From: Candidatus Magasanikiibacteriota bacterium
Lineage (GTDB): Bacteria; Patescibacteriota; Patescibacteriia; Magasanikbacterales; UBA922
Reading direction: 5' to 3'
NCBI GenBank assembly: GCA_002716765.1
Contig: PBBY01000006.1
Coordinates: forward strand, 1-44,712
DNA length: 44,712 nucleotides
The position numbers were made by a program, and so were the translations under genes. The notes under the pieces were generated by a model. That model had not been told where the DNA came from. It worked only from the letters and a program-made list of their open reading frames with translations, and ran no database searches. Below, piece after piece: positions 9,438 to 32,815 of this stretch (position 1 is the first letter of the stretch; the number at the start of each line of letters is the position of its first letter).

Positions 9438-10235
9438 ATGTCACTTGTTTTTGCTGCAATTACTCCACACTCTCCATTACTTATTCCAGGAATCGGAAAA
9501 GAGCAAACAGAAGAACCACTACAAAAAACCAGAGAGGCATTAAAAACGCTAGAGCAAGAAATGTATACAACAAAACCAGATACCATTGTTATTATTTCTC
9601 CACACGAGGGATTGTTTGACGATACGTTTATTATCAATGCACACACACACTTTTCTTCTTCTTATGAAACATTTGCGGATTTTAACACACAAGAATCCTG
9701 GAAAGGTGATCCAGATTTGGCAGCAAAGATTAGCCATGTGTCAAATAAATCAGAAGACATCCCGGTACGCCTTATTAGTGAAGAAAAGTTAAGCCACGGC
9801 TCTTCTGTGCCACTTCATTTCCTTACGGCACATAACAAAGACGTACGAATTTTACCCATTGGTTTTAGTAATCTTTCTCCAGAAAAACATATTGCACTTG
9901 GTGTAATGTTAAAAGATATTATAATGAATCACGAGAAAAAAATTGCGGTTATTGCTTCTGGTGACTTATCCCATACACTTAGCGATGTATCACCATCTGG
10001 TTTTAATGCGCAAGGTGCCACATTTGATGAAACTCTTATCAGGCTACTTGAAGAAAATAATATAGAAAAAATTATAGCAATGGACCCAGAAACCATTACG
10101 CTAGCAAAAGAATGTGGGTATCGTTCCCTGCTTATCCTTTTAGGGATTATTAAAAACATGAAACACACCTTTACAAAACATGCGTACGAACATCCGTTTG
10201 GTATAGGATACCTTACCAGCAATTTTGTTCTTTAA
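9438..10235 (+). CDS. MEMO / class III extradiol dioxygenase (LigB)-like protein
   Basis: 265 aa; FAAITPHSPLLIPGIGKE, TIVIISPHEG, LSHGSSVPLHFL, VIASGDLSHTLS; MEMO/LigB superfamily layout. Confidence 0.8.
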   Translation: MSLVFAAITPHSPLLIPGIGKEQTEEPLQKTREALKTLEQEMYTTKPDTIVIISPHEGLFDDTFIINAHTHFSSSYETFADFNTQESWKGDPDLAAKISHVSNKSEDIPVRLISEEKLSHGSSVPLHFLTAHNKDVRILPIGFSNLSPEKHIALGVMLKDIIMNHEKKIAVIASGDLSHTLSDVSPSGFNAQGATFDETLIRLLEENNIEKIIAMDPETITLAKECGYRSLLILLGIIKNMKHTFTKHAYEHPFGIGYLTSNFVL

Positions 10236-10246
10236 GTTTTTTACGC

Positions 10247-12094
10247 ATGATTGCTCACATTATTCCAATTAAGCGTGTTCAAAAACATATTACGTTTTTT
10301 GATTATCTTGTTCCAGAAGCATTGACACAAGATATTCGTATTGGTCAACTGGTGTCTATTCCACTAAGAAATACCGTTATCTTTGGTATTGTTTTTTCCC
10401 TTTCAAAAAAACCAGAAAAACAAGAATATGAAGTAAAAGAAATAGCTGCAATAATACACAGTATACCACTAGTGTCTCGGCAATATCTTCATATTATTCG
10501 TATTTTATCAGCGTGGTACGGTCTTGCAATGGGTACATTTTTATTACTTGCATTACTACCAATGCAAAAGAGAAAGTTACAGTCCATTACTCTTAAAAAT
10601 ATTCCGCCATATAAAAAGAAAGAGAAACCATTCGGTAAACTGCTGGATCATTTTTCTTATGAAAACAAAAAAGAACACGGGGAAAAACTCCAAAAATTAT
10701 GCAAAAAACAAACACTCATTTTGGTGCCAAAAAAGTCTCTTATGCCCGAAGTGTTTGCATCACTTACCAAAGAACAACAAAAATACACTGCTTTTTGGCA
10801 CAGCGACCTAACTAAAAAAGAACAGTTTTCTACATGGCTCAAAATCCGTAATGGCGAAGTAGATAATATTATTGGGACACGCAGTGCAATATTGTTACCC
10901 TTTTTTTCGCTCAAACACATTGTTATTGATTATGAGTATGACGAGCAACACAAACACTGGGATCAAACACCGCGGTTTTATACAAAAGATATTGCGTTAC
11001 TGATACAGCAAATATATAATACACCTATTACCTATTCTGGATATTCTGTGAGTCTTGCAGAATTTGCGCGTGGCACAATTCCTCAAAAAACAAAAGAGAC
11101 GCCAACAATAATTGACATGCGCAGCCAAAGAAGTAATCATAATTATTCTGTATTTTCAACGACAGTGGAAGAGGCTATTACCACCACAGAAGATGATGTG
11201 TTTTTATTTCTTAACAGACGAGGTTACGCCACATCTTATGGGTGCAGAGATTGTGGTTTTACGTTTTCTTGCACATCTTGTAACCTACCATTTATCTATC
11301 ATGAAAAAAGTAATACATTACAATGTCATTATTGTAAAACAAGCGCATCAATTGTATTTACTTGTCCAAAATGTGCATCTTCTGTAGTAAAACTCAAAGG
11401 TGCGGGAACCGAATTAGTAGAAACACAAGTCCGCAACAGTTTGCCGGAAAAACATAACCATGCTATTGTTCGTATTGATGCCGATGTCAATGACACAACA
11501 TATACAGACGAAAAAAAACCACGTATTCTTATTGGTACAGAAAAAGCTCTCCCGTTTATTCGGTGGAACAAAACACAACATATTGTTTTTATACATATTG
11601 ACCAACAGCTCGTAATCCCAGAATTTTCTGCACAAACACATATGTGGCACATGATTCAAGATGTCTTATACAGGAAAAAACCCACTAGCTCATTTTATAT
11701 ACAAACCATGAATCCTGAACATATTTTATTCCAAAGTCTGGCAGATCCAATACGCTTTTATACTCATGAAAACACACTTAGAAAACGCTTTAACTATCCA
11801 CCGCACACATATATTACTCGGTATTTTTATGGACATCAAAACGCACAAAAAGCAAAAGATGAAGCCGAGAAAGTATATCACATTCTGAATCAGACCTTGA
11901 CAAAAGCACAAAAAGATATTATACTTGAACGTCCATATGACATGCACCCAAAGTACTATAGAGGAAAATACTGGTTCTGTATCATAGCAAGAATGAATAA
12001 TACTACGTGGAAAAATGATCTTATTTGGCTCAATCGCTATATTCCACGACTTTGGCGCATAGACCCACATCCTATCTCACTCCTATCTCCATAA
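10247..12094 (+). CDS. priA: Primosomal protein N' (PriA) homolog, helicase motifs degenerate
   Basis: 615 aa; N-terminal DNA-binding-like domain FDYLVPEAL..IGQLVSIPLR; four zinc Cys pairs CRDC, CTSC, CHYC, CPKC; followed by def and fmt. Canonical Walker A and DEEH not recognisable. Confidence 0.8.
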   Translation: MIAHIIPIKRVQKHITFFDYLVPEALTQDIRIGQLVSIPLRNTVIFGIVFSLSKKPEKQEYEVKEIAAIIHSIPLVSRQYLHIIRILSAWYGLAMGTFLLLALLPMQKRKLQSITLKNIPPYKKKEKPFGKLLDHFSYENKKEHGEKLQKLCKKQTLILVPKKSLMPEVFASLTKEQQKYTAFWHSDLTKKEQFSTWLKIRNGEVDNIIGTRSAILLPFFSLKHIVIDYEYDEQHKHWDQTPRFYTKDIALLIQQIYNTPITYSGYSVSLAEFARGTIPQKTKETPTIIDMRSQRSNHNYSVFSTTVEEAITTTEDDVFLFLNRRGYATSYGCRDCGFTFSCTSCNLPFIYHEKSNTLQCHYCKTSASIVFTCPKCASSVVKLKGAGTELVETQVRNSLPEKHNHAIVRIDADVNDTTYTDEKKPRILIGTEKALPFIRWNKTQHIVFIHIDQQLVIPEFSAQTHMWHMIQDVLYRKKPTSSFYIQTMNPEHILFQSLADPIRFYTHENTLRKRFNYPPHTYITRYFYGHQNAQKAKDEAEKVYHILNQTLTKAQKDIILERPYDMHPKYYRGKYWFCIIARMNNTTWKNDLIWLNRYIPRLWRIDPHPISLLSP

Positions 12095-12099
12095 TATAT

Positions 12100-12609
12100 A
12101 TGCCACTTTCAATAGTTACCCACCCAAATCCAATCCTTAACACTCCCTCAAAAAACATTGCAGCAGACGTTGTGGTACAAAAAGATATGCAAACATTTAT
12201 TACTGACCTTACCGAAGCAATGTACAAATTTGATGGTGTTGGCTTGGCTGCACCACAGGTAGGAAAAAATATTCGGATGTTTGTGGTAGACTCCGATGCA
12301 TTAAAACATACAAAAATACTAAAAGGTACAGTTAACAAAGATAAACCATTTGTCGCGATCAATCCACAATGGACATTGTTAAGCAAAAAAACAAATTGGG
12401 ACTTAGAAGGTTGTTTATCGATACCAAATGTATACGGTAAAGTAAAACGATTCAGTGCTATTATTCTTGACTGCTTAGACAAAGATGGTAATACCGTTTC
12501 ACTTCAGGCAAAAGGTATGTCAGCAAGAGTAATCCAACACGAGACCGATCATGTTGATGGCGTACTTTTTATAGAAAAAGCAAAGAATTTACGTGAAATT
12601 ACCCATTAA
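12100..12609 (+). CDS. def: Peptide deformylase
   Basis: GVGLAAPQVG, EGCLSIPNVYG, QHETDHVDGVLF (HExxH). Start at MPLSIVTHPNPIL (12100) is preferred over ORF start 12025. Confidence 0.95.
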   Translation: MPLSIVTHPNPILNTPSKNIAADVVVQKDMQTFITDLTEAMYKFDGVGLAAPQVGKNIRMFVVDSDALKHTKILKGTVNKDKPFVAINPQWTLLSKKTNWDLEGCLSIPNVYGKVKRFSAIILDCLDKDGNTVSLQAKGMSARVIQHETDHVDGVLFIEKAKNLREITH

Positions 12610-12621
12610 TCAGTAAACTAT

Positions 12622-13545
12622 ATGAACCCCATTACGCTTTCATTTTTTGGTAGCCATGTTTTTGCGGTATCCATATTAGACGCTCTTATTGCCGCACCAA
12701 ATATAAAAGTAGCGTACATTATTACACAACCAGACAAGCCAGCTGGAAGAAAAAAAGAATTACAATCACCGCCAGTTAAAGTATTTGCACAAGCACATCC
12801 CAACATCCCCCTTTTTCAGCCAGAAACACTCAAAAACTATAACCTGCCCGACACACCAATTGATCTGTGTGTTGTTGCACAATATGGCAATATTATACCA
12901 GAGCGTATTATTACATCCCCAAAACATAACACACTCAACGTTCACACTTCCCTTTTACCACAATATCGTGGGGCTTCTCCTATTCAATCAGCATTAATAG
13001 ATGGACAAACCACAACCGGAGCTACTATAATGTGCATGGATAAAGGACTGGACACTGGACCGACACTTGCGCAAAAAGCGATAACCATAGATCCTGATGA
13101 CACGTATATAACGCTCAGCGAAAAACTTGCGACACTTAGTGCCAAACTCCTTATTACCACTATTCCAAAATACGTCACTGGCACAATTCTTCCACAAAAA
13201 CAAGATGAAAAAAAAGCAACACATTGCAAGCAAATAAAAAAAGAGGAAGGGCAAATAGATTGGGGAAAAACAGCTCAAGAAATATATAATAGATACAGAG
13301 GTTTATATTTTTGGCCAGGAATTTGGACCACATGGAATGGAAAGCGATTAAAACTCTTATCAATTGAACCCGCAACAGAGCAAGTGGCAATTGGCACTGC
13401 CAAAGTTATTCATGATATACTATATATTGGCTGCGCCAGTGGATCCATTCGTGTACACAAATTACACCTAGAGAATAAAAAAGCGATGGATACCACTGTC
13501 TTTCTAAAAGGAAATAGCACAATACACGGCGCGCAACTTGGATAA
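12622..13545 (+). CDS. fmt: Methionyl-tRNA formyltransferase
   Basis: 307 aa; LSFFGSHVFAVSILDAL, TQPDKPAGRKKELQSPPVK, NVHTSLLPQYRGASPIQSALIDG, DKGLDTGP. Confidence 0.95.
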   Translation: MNPITLSFFGSHVFAVSILDALIAAPNIKVAYIITQPDKPAGRKKELQSPPVKVFAQAHPNIPLFQPETLKNYNLPDTPIDLCVVAQYGNIIPERIITSPKHNTLNVHTSLLPQYRGASPIQSALIDGQTTTGATIMCMDKGLDTGPTLAQKAITIDPDDTYITLSEKLATLSAKLLITTIPKYVTGTILPQKQDEKKATHCKQIKKEEGQIDWGKTAQEIYNRYRGLYFWPGIWTTWNGKRLKLLSIEPATEQVAIGTAKVIHDILYIGCASGSIRVHKLHLENKKAMDTTVFLKGNSTIHGAQLG

Positions 13546-28566: not shown

Positions 28567-28595
28567 TTGACAAAAACCCAAATACATGGTAAAAA
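28567..28595 (+). promoter_or_regulatory. Sigma70-like promoter for the MopE-like lipoprotein
   Basis: TTGACA (28567-28572), 17 bp spacer, TAAAAA (28590-28595). Confidence 0.6.
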
Positions 28596-28651
28596 TAGTA
28601 CATGCCAAACGAGCATTTTGCTCATTACAACCTAAAGAGGAGAAAAAACCA

Positions 28652-31600
28652 ATGAAAACCTTTTTTGCTTTAATTATCATAACTCTTGTGTCAGGCTGTA
28701 AACCTGATATCAATTTCATTGATACAACCCTAAGTATCAAGACATCCTGTCTTGAACAAGTCCACAAATGTGGAAAAGTGGAAACAAACACCCCGCTCTG
28801 CATAACATTTGCAGCAGCAGAAAAAGAAATTGCCTTAACCGGACAACTGAAATGTGAGAACGAAAAATGTGAGGCAAGTATCCTAGAAGAAACACACCTC
28901 GACGTAGAGGTGGCAGGCAAAGACCTGGAACTAAACATTTTTCTCATGCGCGAACCAATGGTGGATTGCAAAGGCTTCCTAAAAGATCCAACATGCACAG
29001 GATTGTGCTTTGGGAAACTACATGATCTAGGGAAAGAACTTGACCTACGAAATGGTGAAGGCAGGTGCAACATTGAGATGGTCGAAACCGAAGATGAAGT
29101 CTGCTCAGATAATATCGACAACAATTGTGATGGCAGAATCGATGAAAACTGTGTAGAAACGGGAACGGTTTGCCCAGAACTACATGCCACCGTTTTAACC
29201 GACGAAGCGTGTGGGCAAAACGGACTACGCTCACTTGTCTGTGAAAGTGGTCTTTGGAGGGAAGATATCTGCATTGAGCAAGAATCACCCATGTTAGAGT
29301 GTATACCCAATGAAACTGAGAATGGTATGTGTGGCACAACCAACACCGGAACCAGAAACAGAATCTGTGAAGATAATGGTTTTTGGGGAGAATGGAGTGA
29401 ATGCAGTTTTAATGGCGAATGCCAAAATGAAGGCGATATTCGTCCTGTAGCCTGCACCCAAACCCATGGCCCTAACAGCACCAAGCAAGAGATATGCTTG
29501 GAGGGGGTTTGGCACACACAAGAAGAGTGCGTCTGTACTGAAAATTTTATAACAACCTTCACTTGTACAAACCTTGGCATGGCAACACAAGTCTGTAACG
29601 AAGACGGGACACTGGGAAATATTGTCTGCCCAGATGAATGTTTTAACGGCAATAGTATGGACTGCTACTCTGGTCAGGAAAACACATTAAACGTAGGGCT
29701 GTGCTTAGCAGGAACAAAAACCTGTACAAACGGCCACTACGGCAACTGTGTGGGGGAAGAACTCCCACAACCAGAGATCTGTGATGGATTAGACAATGAC
29801 TGCGACGGCAATATTGACGAACAGGCAATAAACATTCCGAATATCCAATGCTTTGAAGGCATTGGGGCCTGTCGCAACGCAGGCTCATACGTTTGCCAAG
29901 ATGGAAACGTTATTTGTAACGCCGTTGCTAGCATGGCCCAACAAGAAATCTGTGACGACGATTTTTCAGACGAAGACTGTGACGGTCTGCAAAACGAGGA
30001 CTGCCAGTGCAATCCAGACGGCTTCCCAAGACCAGGGCAAAATTGTGGCATTGGTGCATGCCAAGCACAAGGAGTAATCACCTGTGAAGGTGGAATGATT
30101 ATGAACTCCTGCGTCGAAAATGAGTCATCAGAAGAAGATAATAATTGTGATCTCATCGACAACGATTGTGACGGGGTGCTTGATGAAGATTTTGAACCTA
30201 CTGTGACAGCTTGTGGTATTGGCGAATGCCGAAGAGAAGGAAATACCAGATGCATCAACGGAGAGGAAGAAGATGTGTGTGTCCCCCACTTACCACAACG
30301 AGAAATCTGTGATGGATTAGACAATGACTGTGACAACCAGGTCGATGAGGATCTTGGTTTAGGGGACGTCTGTTCCGTTGGTGTGGGCGAGTGCGGAAAC
30401 ACAGGCACGTTTGTTTGTGGAAATAATGGGGACGTAGTATGTAATGCGTCACCAAGAGAACCACAAGTTGAAGTCTGCGATGGGTTAGATAACGACTGTG
30501 ACCGATTTGTCGACGAAGACTCAACCGATATGATTATTGGCACTGCCTGCGACATGTCTGAAGAGCATGTCTTGGGCGAATGTGCACGGAACCGAGGTAC
30601 GTACATGTGCACAGTTGGTGGCGAAATCACCTGTATCGGAGGTAATACTCCACGTGCTGAACAGTGTAACCGGCTGGACGATGACTGTGACGGTAATGTA
30701 GATGAAGATTTCCCAGGACTTGGTGATGAATGTTTTGCTGGATTAGGCCTCTGCGAAAGAAGTGGTTCCATCGAATGTAGTCAGGACGGATTGACTGCAA
30801 GCTGTACAGCAACACCAAGAAACCCTCTTTCAATTGAGCAGTGCGGTAATAATCAAGATGACGACTGCAACGGACTCGTCGACGAAGGTGAGGAGTGTGT
30901 TTGTATGGATGGACAAGAGGTGGAATGTGGCTCAAATATTGGGTCATGCCTTCTAGGAACCCAAACCTGTCAGTTTGGTCAATATGGTGAATGTCTCGGT
31001 GGAGTCCAGCCCGTAGATGAAACCTGTAACGGAGAAGACGATGACTGTGATGAAGCCGTAGACGAAGGTTTTAATGTTGGGAATGGCTGTAATATTGGTC
31101 AAGGAGTTTGTTTCTCTGAGGGTGTAGTAACTTGCGAAGGTTGTAACGCACACATTATTGAACCGAACGATGAGATCTGTAATGGGTTAGATGACGACTG
31201 TGATGGAACGGTAGATGAGAATCCAACCGACCCAACCATCGGAGAAGACTGTGGCCCAGAACTCGGCGTCTGTGGGTCAGATCGAGGAAGTCTGGTTTGC
31301 TCCAACGCAGAAATCATCTGCGAAGGAGGTGTACAGCCAGAAGATGAGGTCTGTAATGGGCTCGACGATGACTGTGACGGAGATACCGATGAACTCTTTG
31401 TATTGCTTGGCACACCCTGTTCTGCAGGTGTTGGCCAGTGTCAGAGAAACGGGGTCTACGTCTGCAGTGAAGACGGAAACGATACGCGCTGCAATGCAGT
31501 AGCAGGCCAACCTCAGAATGAAACCTGTAACAGACTGGATGACAACTGCGATGGAAACGTCGACGAAATTCAGTGTAACTGTTCAAACGGTGACACACAG

Positions 31601-32815
31601 CCCTGTGGTAGCAATGTTGGGGCATGTCAGCAGGGTGTTGAAACTTGCACCAACGGCCAGTGGGGGGAATGTGTCAACGAAGTTAGTCCTGTCGAAGAAG
31701 CTTGTAATGCGCTAGACGACGACTGTGATGGGCTTACCGATGAGGATTTTACTCTTGGTGAGGTTTGCACGGTCGGACTTGGTATCTGCATTAATTCTGG
31801 TGTAACCCAATGTCGCCAAGATGAGACTGATAGCGAATGCTCTGTCCAACCACTTCCACCACAAAACGAGATCTGTGATGACCTCGATAATGATTGTGAT
31901 GGCATTGTGGATAACAATGTGGTGCCAGAGTGTGAGTGTGATAACGGTAACACACGGCCCTGTGGTAGCAATGTTGGGGCATGTCAGCAGGGTGTTGAGA
32001 CTTGCATCAACGGCCAGTGGGACGGTGAATGTGACGGGGAGATCGTTCCTGTTATTGAAACCTGTAATGGGCTAGACGATAACTGTGATGGGAATACCGA
32101 TGAGAGCTTCAACCTTGGCAACCCCTGTTCTGTTGGACTTGGTATCTGCCAAAGGTCAAGCAACCTCGTTTGCAGTCCTGACCAAAGCGCTTCTGAGTGT
32201 GATATTGAGCCAGGCAACCCGGTTGATGAAGTCTGTGACGATGAACTCGACAATGACTGCGATGGTTTTACTGATGGCGATGATGATGATTGCGGCTGTG
32301 TTCCACAAGCCGAAGTGTGTGATGGGGTTGACAATGACTGCGATGGCATCATAGATAACTTCACCACAACAATCAACGACCACACTATTTGGTGGTGCAG
32401 TGATGAGGTTGAAGTTGGTGGGTTGTTTTATGAAAGAGGTTATGCTGAGATCATGCATAATTTTGCACAAGCGCAAACTTACTGTGCAGAACAAGGAAAA
32501 AGGTTGCCTACAATTAATGAACTCCGTATGATTATCCGCGGTTGCCCACAGACAGAAACGGGAGGGTCATGCCCGGTCACCGACCAAAACCCGAATGGGA
32601 ACCTGAACGAGTGTGGAGGTTGTGCACGAAGAAATGGTGATGCAAATTTTGGACTTTATTTTCAAGCCAACACTTGGGAGCACACTATATATAGAAGTAA
32701 AGCTTTCTCATCTACAGTCACAAATAACGGTAACGTACTAGTGTTAGACATGGCTAGGGGTAGTATAGGGGCCTTAAGAGCAACTGAACGCGAAGTTCAG
32801 ATCTGCGTCCGATAG
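28652..32815 (+). CDS. Cys-rich repeat lipoprotein with MopE-like putative metal-binding motifs and C-terminal DUF1566-like domain
   Basis: Start MKTFFALIIITLVSGC (lipobox) at 28652, preceded by an AGAGGAG ribosome-binding site; 17 copies of the C-[DN]-x-LD-[ND]-[DN]-CDG-x-x-DE type motif; C-terminal AQTYCAEQGKRLPTINELRMIIRGCPQTETGGSCPVTD...VQICVR. Confidence 0.88.
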   Translation: MKTFFALIIITLVSGCKPDINFIDTTLSIKTSCLEQVHKCGKVETNTPLCITFAAAEKEIALTGQLKCENEKCEASILEETHLDVEVAGKDLELNIFLMREPMVDCKGFLKDPTCTGLCFGKLHDLGKELDLRNGEGRCNIEMVETEDEVCSDNIDNNCDGRIDENCVETGTVCPELHATVLTDEACGQNGLRSLVCESGLWREDICIEQESPMLECIPNETENGMCGTTNTGTRNRICEDNGFWGEWSECSFNGECQNEGDIRPVACTQTHGPNSTKQEICLEGVWHTQEECVCTENFITTFTCTNLGMATQVCNEDGTLGNIVCPDECFNGNSMDCYSGQENTLNVGLCLAGTKTCTNGHYGNCVGEELPQPEICDGLDNDCDGNIDEQAINIPNIQCFEGIGACRNAGSYVCQDGNVICNAVASMAQQEICDDDFSDEDCDGLQNEDCQCNPDGFPRPGQNCGIGACQAQGVITCEGGMIMNSCVENESSEEDNNCDLIDNDCDGVLDEDFEPTVTACGIGECRREGNTRCINGEEEDVCVPHLPQREICDGLDNDCDNQVDEDLGLGDVCSVGVGECGNTGTFVCGNNGDVVCNASPREPQVEVCDGLDNDCDRFVDEDSTDMIIGTACDMSEEHVLGECARNRGTYMCTVGGEITCIGGNTPRAEQCNRLDDDCDGNVDEDFPGLGDECFAGLGLCERSGSIECSQDGLTASCTATPRNPLSIEQCGNNQDDDCNGLVDEGEECVCMDGQEVECGSNIGSCLLGTQTCQFGQYGECLGGVQPVDETCNGEDDDCDEAVDEGFNVGNGCNIGQGVCFSEGVVTCEGCNAHIIEPNDEICNGLDDDCDGTVDENPTDPTIGEDCGPELGVCGSDRGSLVCSNAEIICEGGVQPEDEVCNGLDDDCDGDTDELFVLLGTPCSAGVGQCQRNGVYVCSEDGNDTRCNAVAGQPQNETCNRLDDNCDGNVDEIQCNCSNGDTQPCGSNVGACQQGVETCTNGQWGECVNEVSPVEEACNALDDDCDGLTDEDFTLGEVCTVGLGICINSGVTQCRQDETDSECSVQPLPPQNEICDDLDNDCDGIVDNNVVPECECDNGNTRPCGSNVGACQQGVETCINGQWDGECDGEIVPVIETCNGLDDNCDGNTDESFNLGNPCSVGLGICQRSSNLVCSPDQSASECDIEPGNPVDEVCDDELDNDCDGFTDGDDDDCGCVPQAEVCDGVDNDCDGIIDNFTTTINDHTIWWCSDEVEVGGLFYERGYAEIMHNFAQAQTYCAEQGKRLPTINELRMIIRGCPQTETGGSCPVTDQNPNGNLNECGGCARRNGDANFGLYFQANTWEHTIYRSKAFSSTVTNNGNVLVLDMARGSIGALRATEREVQICVR
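31601..31664 (+). repeat. Near-identical internal direct repeat, copy 1
   Basis: CCCTGTGGTAGCAATGTTGGGGCATGTCAGCAGGGTGTTGAAACTTGCACCAACGGCCAGTGGG; 2 mismatches to 31958-32021. Confidence 0.9.
31958..32021 (+). repeat. Near-identical internal direct repeat, copy 2 (357 bp downstream, in frame)
   Basis: CCCTGTGGTAGCAATGTTGGGGCATGTCAGCAGGGTGTTGAGACTTGCATCAACGGCCAGTGGG. Confidence 0.9.

Follow-up and report, generated by a model that had tools for sequence, protein, structure and literature searches.

A PriA ortholog with eroded motor motifs in Candidatus Magasanikbacteria, and the small genes in the priA slot of its relatives

The priA locus and its product

We analysed a window, that is, a whole stretch of 44,712 nucleotides from one contig of Candidatus Magasanikbacteria, an organism whose class we take to be GTDB ABY1. 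A forward-strand open reading frame at 10247-12094 runs uninterrupted from ATG to stop over 615 amino acids (table 1), as an earlier sequence-only reading had described it, and is a real PriA ortholog: its product matches TIGR00595 (priA) over model positions 25-479 of 509 with E 1.3e-72 and 245 bits, above the curated cut-off of 230.35, and solved PriA structures in the PDB with E 4e-40. Its nearest named relatives, almost all from Candidatus Magasanikbacteria, are at most 44% identical. The gene stands in the priA-def-fmt order recognized earlier, the downstream pair being identified by PF01327 and PF00551/PF02911, and is preceded by a gene of the LigB/Memo family (PF02900, E 6e-40), which holds the same place in all 19 named loci of the Magasanikbacteria type. 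Elsewhere in the window, a 1409-aa forward-strand frame (28586-32815) carries three MopE-type metal-binding stretches (PF11617, E 1e-42). The search for a second, intact PriA proposed in that reading found none in the 886-kb genome (22 contigs, about 90% complete); the other PriA-like matches were UvrB (717 aa, contig C16) and weak ones on contig C22. DnaB, DciA, and an SSB ending in EDIPF are encoded in the genome.

At the N terminus, where the earlier reading saw the domain kept, PF17764 recovers the 3'-DNA-binding domain (residues 16-103, E 1e-14, 54.5 bits), with F-D-Y (residues 18-20) aligned to E. coli PriA 16-18. All four cysteine pairs are likewise in place: CRDC, CTSC, CHYC, and CPKC align with the zinc cysteines 436/439, 445/448, 463/466, and 476/479 of E. 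coli PriA, so that the eight cysteines of both zinc sites are accounted for in a region that scores 25.1 against PF18319 (cut-off 26). The C-terminal domain is present by predicted structure (521-607) and fold match, despite the lack of a Pfam PriA_C match to the protein. The winged-helix domain (about 110-200 in E. coli) is missing, 7 residues being aligned at its place; since most intact patescibacterial PriAs also lack it, with about 20 residues there, the winged helix is not a defining feature of PriA in the phylum, and the idea that it went missing because the motor did is rejected.

Table 1. Features of the priA locus in the window (residue numbers refer to the 615-aa product)
Feature	Coordinates	Strand	Basis
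LigB/Memo-family gene, locus marker	9438..10235	+	PF02900
priA ortholog, eroded motor, 615 aa	10247..12094	+	TIGR00595, PDB PriA, AF2 model best match 8fak_H
3'-DNA-binding domain, residues 1-105	10247..10561	+	PF17764
Short linker at place of E. coli winged helix, residues 106-133	10562..10645	+	Alignment
Walker A place, residues 138-145 YENKKEHG, P-loop gone	10658..10681	+	Alignment, model
Lobe-1 motif GTRS kept, residues 210-213	10874..10885	+	G210 89%, T211 83% in eroded PriAs
Walker B (DEEH) place, residues 228-231 DYEY	10928..10939	+	Alignment
Loop after Walker B kept, residues 235-248 HKHWDQTPRFYTKD	10949..10990	+	K236, P242 invariant in 48 proteins
Motif III (GSATP) place, residues 264-268 SGYSV	11036..11050	+	Alignment
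Motif IV FLNRRGYA kept, residues 321-328	11207..11230	+	Alignment, conservation
Cysteine-rich region, eight Cys, two zinc sites, residues 333-376	11243..11374	+	Aligned to E. coli C436-C479
Motif V ILIGT kept, residues 427-431	11525..11539	+	T431 98%, G430 72% in eroded PriAs
Motif VI (QVAGRAGR) place, residues 472-478 DVLYRKK	11660..11680	+	Alignment
C-terminal domain, residues 521-615, ends IDPHPISLLSP	11807..12091	+	High pLDDT; D606 invariant, P609 >90%
def, peptide deformylase	12046..12609	+	PF01327 E 5e-46
fmt, methionyl-tRNA formyltransferase	12622..13545	+	PF00551/PF02911

Motor motifs and predicted structure

An alignment of E. coli PriA (from NC_000913) with 139 other PriAs splits into two clean groups: 40 intact (E. 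coli and 39 Patescibacteria) and 100 eroded, the window protein among them. The intact proteins keep the P-loop, DExH/Q, a GSATP-type motif III, and QVxGRxGR, each motor-motif pattern being present in 38-40 of the 40. Throughout the eroded group motifs III and VI are absent (100 of 100) and the P-loop is missing from its place, while the Walker B pattern fits five. The window protein does not match motifs I, II, III, and VI of an active SF2 ATPase; YENKKEHG, SGYSV, and DVLYRKK occupy the expected positions, in line with the erosion first noticed in the sequence. Walker B is degenerate rather than absent, with DYEY at DEEH and the first D and second E kept. Scored at positions conserved or nearly fixed in intact PriAs (E. 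coli numbers), retention among eroded PriAs falls to 0% for G229, 3% for T231, and 2% each for Q580 and G583, all at the ATP site, with most of E321, A357, Q540, G545, and motif VI also lost; it reaches 90% for P253, 89% for G302, 91% for G429, 98% for T539, 99% for R625, and 100% for P632. Also kept are the N and G of motif IV, the GT of the lobe-1 motif, the GT of motif V, Y18 of the 3'-binding domain, P631, and the C-terminal D726 and P729. In SF2 helicases, the motifs kept here touch DNA and those lost here touch ATP. At the level of sequence, the loss is selective: it has taken residues of the ATP site and spared the motifs that contact DNA, along with the outer zinc site, the C-terminal signature, and the 3'-binding domain. 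The outer zinc site is complete in 98 of 100 eroded PriAs and the inner in 82. Where the inner site is lost, all four cysteines usually go together and the outer site stays (L021, L022, L023, L036, L131, L133, and others). In one family (f6, L044-L048), PriA measures about 510 aa, with only the outer zinc cysteines and no C-terminal domain, def still being adjacent.

The AlphaFold2 model of the window protein (48 own-class sequences) is confident (pLDDT 91.9, pTM 0.91) and shows no usable P-loop: a strand (134-137) is followed by a helix (141-151) at the Walker A place, with 3 residues (138-140) between them, versus 5 (157-161) in a control model of an intact patescibacterial PriA. Among solved structures the window model comes closest to E. 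coli PriA bound to a fork (8fak, TM 0.81; other PriA structures 0.58-0.67). Given that the intact relative is modelled in the same closed shape (8fak 0.84; others 0.63-0.72, with 4nl4 at 0.72), this shape is not specific to eroded PriA, and a "locked" fork-bound shape is rejected as a special feature of it. Could the protein still be an ATPase with a rebuilt, noncanonical nucleotide site? The helicase core fold is retained, and so is the Walker B aspartate in about 59% of eroded PriAs; yet the P-loop is shortened, the motif VI arginines are gone, and a pattern search for [AG]xxxxGK[ST] across the whole window protein found none, and so no sign of the relocated P-loop that had been named as a possible refutation, with one chance-like match elsewhere among the 100 eroded proteins. 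We thus regard a rebuilt ATPase as quite improbable, although sequence alone leaves room for a weak or unconventional nucleotide site.

Distribution, selection, and the priA slot

The eroded state is class-wide and not a local pseudogene. All 72 aligned PriAs of the window's class lack the P-loop, as do 28 from other classes, whereas 39 patescibacterial PriAs in the aligned set retain it; across 144 class genomes, every above-cut-off PriA match begins beyond the end of the model that carries Walker A. A quick tree that left out the motif columns places the class's eroded PriAs, together with most of the other eroded ones, in a single group nested within the intact patescibacterial PriAs (support 93, not starred), and it requires three or more changes overall. 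With branches this long, a single origin of the main group counts as likely but falls short of being shown. The eroded L131 pairs with an intact PriA of its own family with full support, and on this tree its erosion is an independent loss. Pairwise dN/dS (Nei-Gojobori; rough values, most dS >1) is about 0.08-0.18 between eroded genes and about 0.1 in two intact pairs with usable dS; it was taken on eroded relatives, the nearest relative of the window gene being too distant. PriA orthology, lost motor motifs, and purifying selection, the last measured on eroded relatives, place the gene by its sequence features with the D. radiodurans-type pseudohelicases. The view that the gene has a retained, ATPase-independent role and is not a pseudogene is thus supported by class-wide erosion, open frames, dN/dS, and conserved gene order, as well as by the confident model without a usable P-loop and the failure to find a second PriA in the genome.

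Not every relative has the gene. A profile built from the class itself, which is more sensitive, finds no PriA match at E 1e-8 in 38 of the 144 class genomes; the absence of priA from about a quarter of the class implies that its role is dispensable or replaceable there. Over the phylum, 147 of 286 genomes (about half) have no TIGR00595 match at the strict threshold of E 1e-20, which is at odds with the statement that all bacteria have PriA. We found the Memo gene in 25 of 29 genomes without recognizable PriA, and in 22 of these 25 def follows on the same contig 282-578 bases on; this adjacency means that the absence of priA is not a mere assembly gap. The Memo-def gap (L175-L199) holds a small frame of 84-105 aa, belonging to family A in 16 genomes or to family B in 7. 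Family A members (NKNIHSExHYWADVIS...MYLGxIKRIG) are all on the operon strand, share 38-71% identity with the first member and have 15 invariant residues, and family B frames (KPPAYxWQDLAL...WKYFFK) lie in the gap on either strand. One priA-less genome (G016, L175) carries neither before def, having instead a distinct, charged 127-aa frame. In a whole-genome search of 80 class genomes, 14 carry A and 8 carry B (one weak), never both; A or B is present in 22 of the 26 PriA-less genomes, always at the priA position in those whose slot was read, and in none of the 54 with priA. The exclusion is strong (Fisher p 6e-16), a value that ignores kinship and how the families were found, its independent part being the 0 of 54 priA-bearing genomes. 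Neither family matches Pfam, NCBIfam, or the PDB, or PHROG at a useful level; A has no plasmid match and B no viral match. Profile comparison gives no support for deriving A and B from fragments of PriA or for uniting them in one family, nor do PDB profile searches support the DnaD/DnaT-like fold considered from their sequence pattern. A distant 74-aa relative of family A occurs in two viral contigs (L223, L224, 2992-3216) among small unannotated genes.

A quick tree of Memo and Def, which is not a species tree because both genes are linked to the slot, has the slot switching between priA and no priA at least 13 times, about four of them forced by well-supported branches. The exclusive small genes point to repeated replacement of priA, and the exchange at the slot suggests that A and B do PriA's job; alternatively, some other incompatibility with PriA could keep them apart from it, or the small proteins could require that PriA be absent. 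The fuller proposal, in which a motorless PriA scaffold serves the class and its slot has repeatedly been taken by unrelated A or B proteins doing the same job, DnaB reloading at broken forks, without a helicase fold, is a tentative one that we hold to be possible and rather doubtful. Were A and B to replace PriA, PriA would not be universal in bacteria. A decaying gene offers another account of the same slot, with PriA on its way out, little function left, and A or B merely sitting at the deletion site: PriA sequences are very divergent, the gene is missing from 26 of the 80 class genomes tested, and the 510-aa versions of family f6 have shed the inner zinc site and the C-terminal domain. Against this stand full-length open frames in nearly all relatives, the low dN/dS, near-invariant residues across the class, and a well-predicted fold, and we see only a small chance that decay is the explanation.

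Proposed role and known counterparts

Very probably, the gene product is a PriA pseudohelicase, conserved as a scaffold for fork recognition, that would neither bind nor hydrolyze ATP; the inner zinc site, incomplete in 18% of eroded PriAs, speaks against it. The window PriA would lack ATPase activity, bind forks, and recruit DnaB, and its part in replication restart is presumed on the strength of homology and of the D. radiodurans protein (PMC4504706). In the proposed mechanism, the 3'-binding domain would hold the 3' end of the nascent leading strand; the two lobes, the C-terminal domain, and the zinc-bound region would grip the fork, and these four parts would together form a closed pore around the single-stranded DNA of the lagging strand. 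The PriA-fork complex would then recruit DnaB, with DciA as helicase partner and SSB as anchor, the lagging-strand duplex being cleared by another helicase. Precedents exist: ATPase mutants of E. coli PriA remain able to assemble primosomes (PMC4504706), and PriA-K230A has been used in DnaB reloading assays (PMC10175261). The lost motor and a locus shared with def and fmt, not replication genes, might instead hint at a new job outside replication restart, such as a DNA-binding factor of another pathway. Yet def is the gene directly downstream of priA at 12 of 30 intact loci too, compared with 60 of the 82 eroded loci whose sequence extends far enough, and the parts kept (3'-binding domain, outer zinc site, C-terminal domain) are those that bind the fork in E. 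coli (PMC10175261), so a new job seems to us scarcely credible. With the scaffold as the preferred reading, a whole class without the motor, many of its members without PriA, amounts to a natural experiment on the purpose of the ATPase, and the exclusive slot proteins are concrete candidates for minimal PriA replacements.

A motorless PriA is already known from D. radiodurans, whose protein neither hydrolyzes ATP nor unwinds DNA but still binds forks, and for which there is evidence of DnaB binding (PMC4504706). Like it, the window PriA has degenerate Walker A and B motifs and keeps the zinc region and fork-binding parts; ATPase loss is shown for the former (PMC4504706) and predicted for the latter. 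In Deinococcus-Thermus, the P-loop is still recognizable, with the GKT lysine changed to arginine, whereas the window's class has lost Walker A, III, and VI altogether; unlike in Deinococcus, the winged helix is absent here, and the state spans the class and other Patescibacteria classes. Actinobacterial-type PriAs (NCBIfam PRK14873 models) are not known to carry recognizable helicase motifs, and likewise form a lineage-wide group. The window PriA matches PRK14873 much more weakly (best 102 bits, cut-off 812) than the helicase-type PRK05580 (292 bits); hence its motor loss appears independent of the actinobacterial type. A literature search in an incomplete library found no paper on patescibacterial PriA erosion. 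In fold, domain order, zinc ligands, and 3'-binding and C-terminal domains, the window protein resembles E. coli and Klebsiella PriA (8fak, 6dcr, 4nl4); it departs from them in its missing ATPase motifs and winged helix and in its length (615 vs 732 aa). What differs from the D. radiodurans case is the degree of erosion, affecting all ATPase motifs, its breadth over a whole class, and the exclusive small genes.
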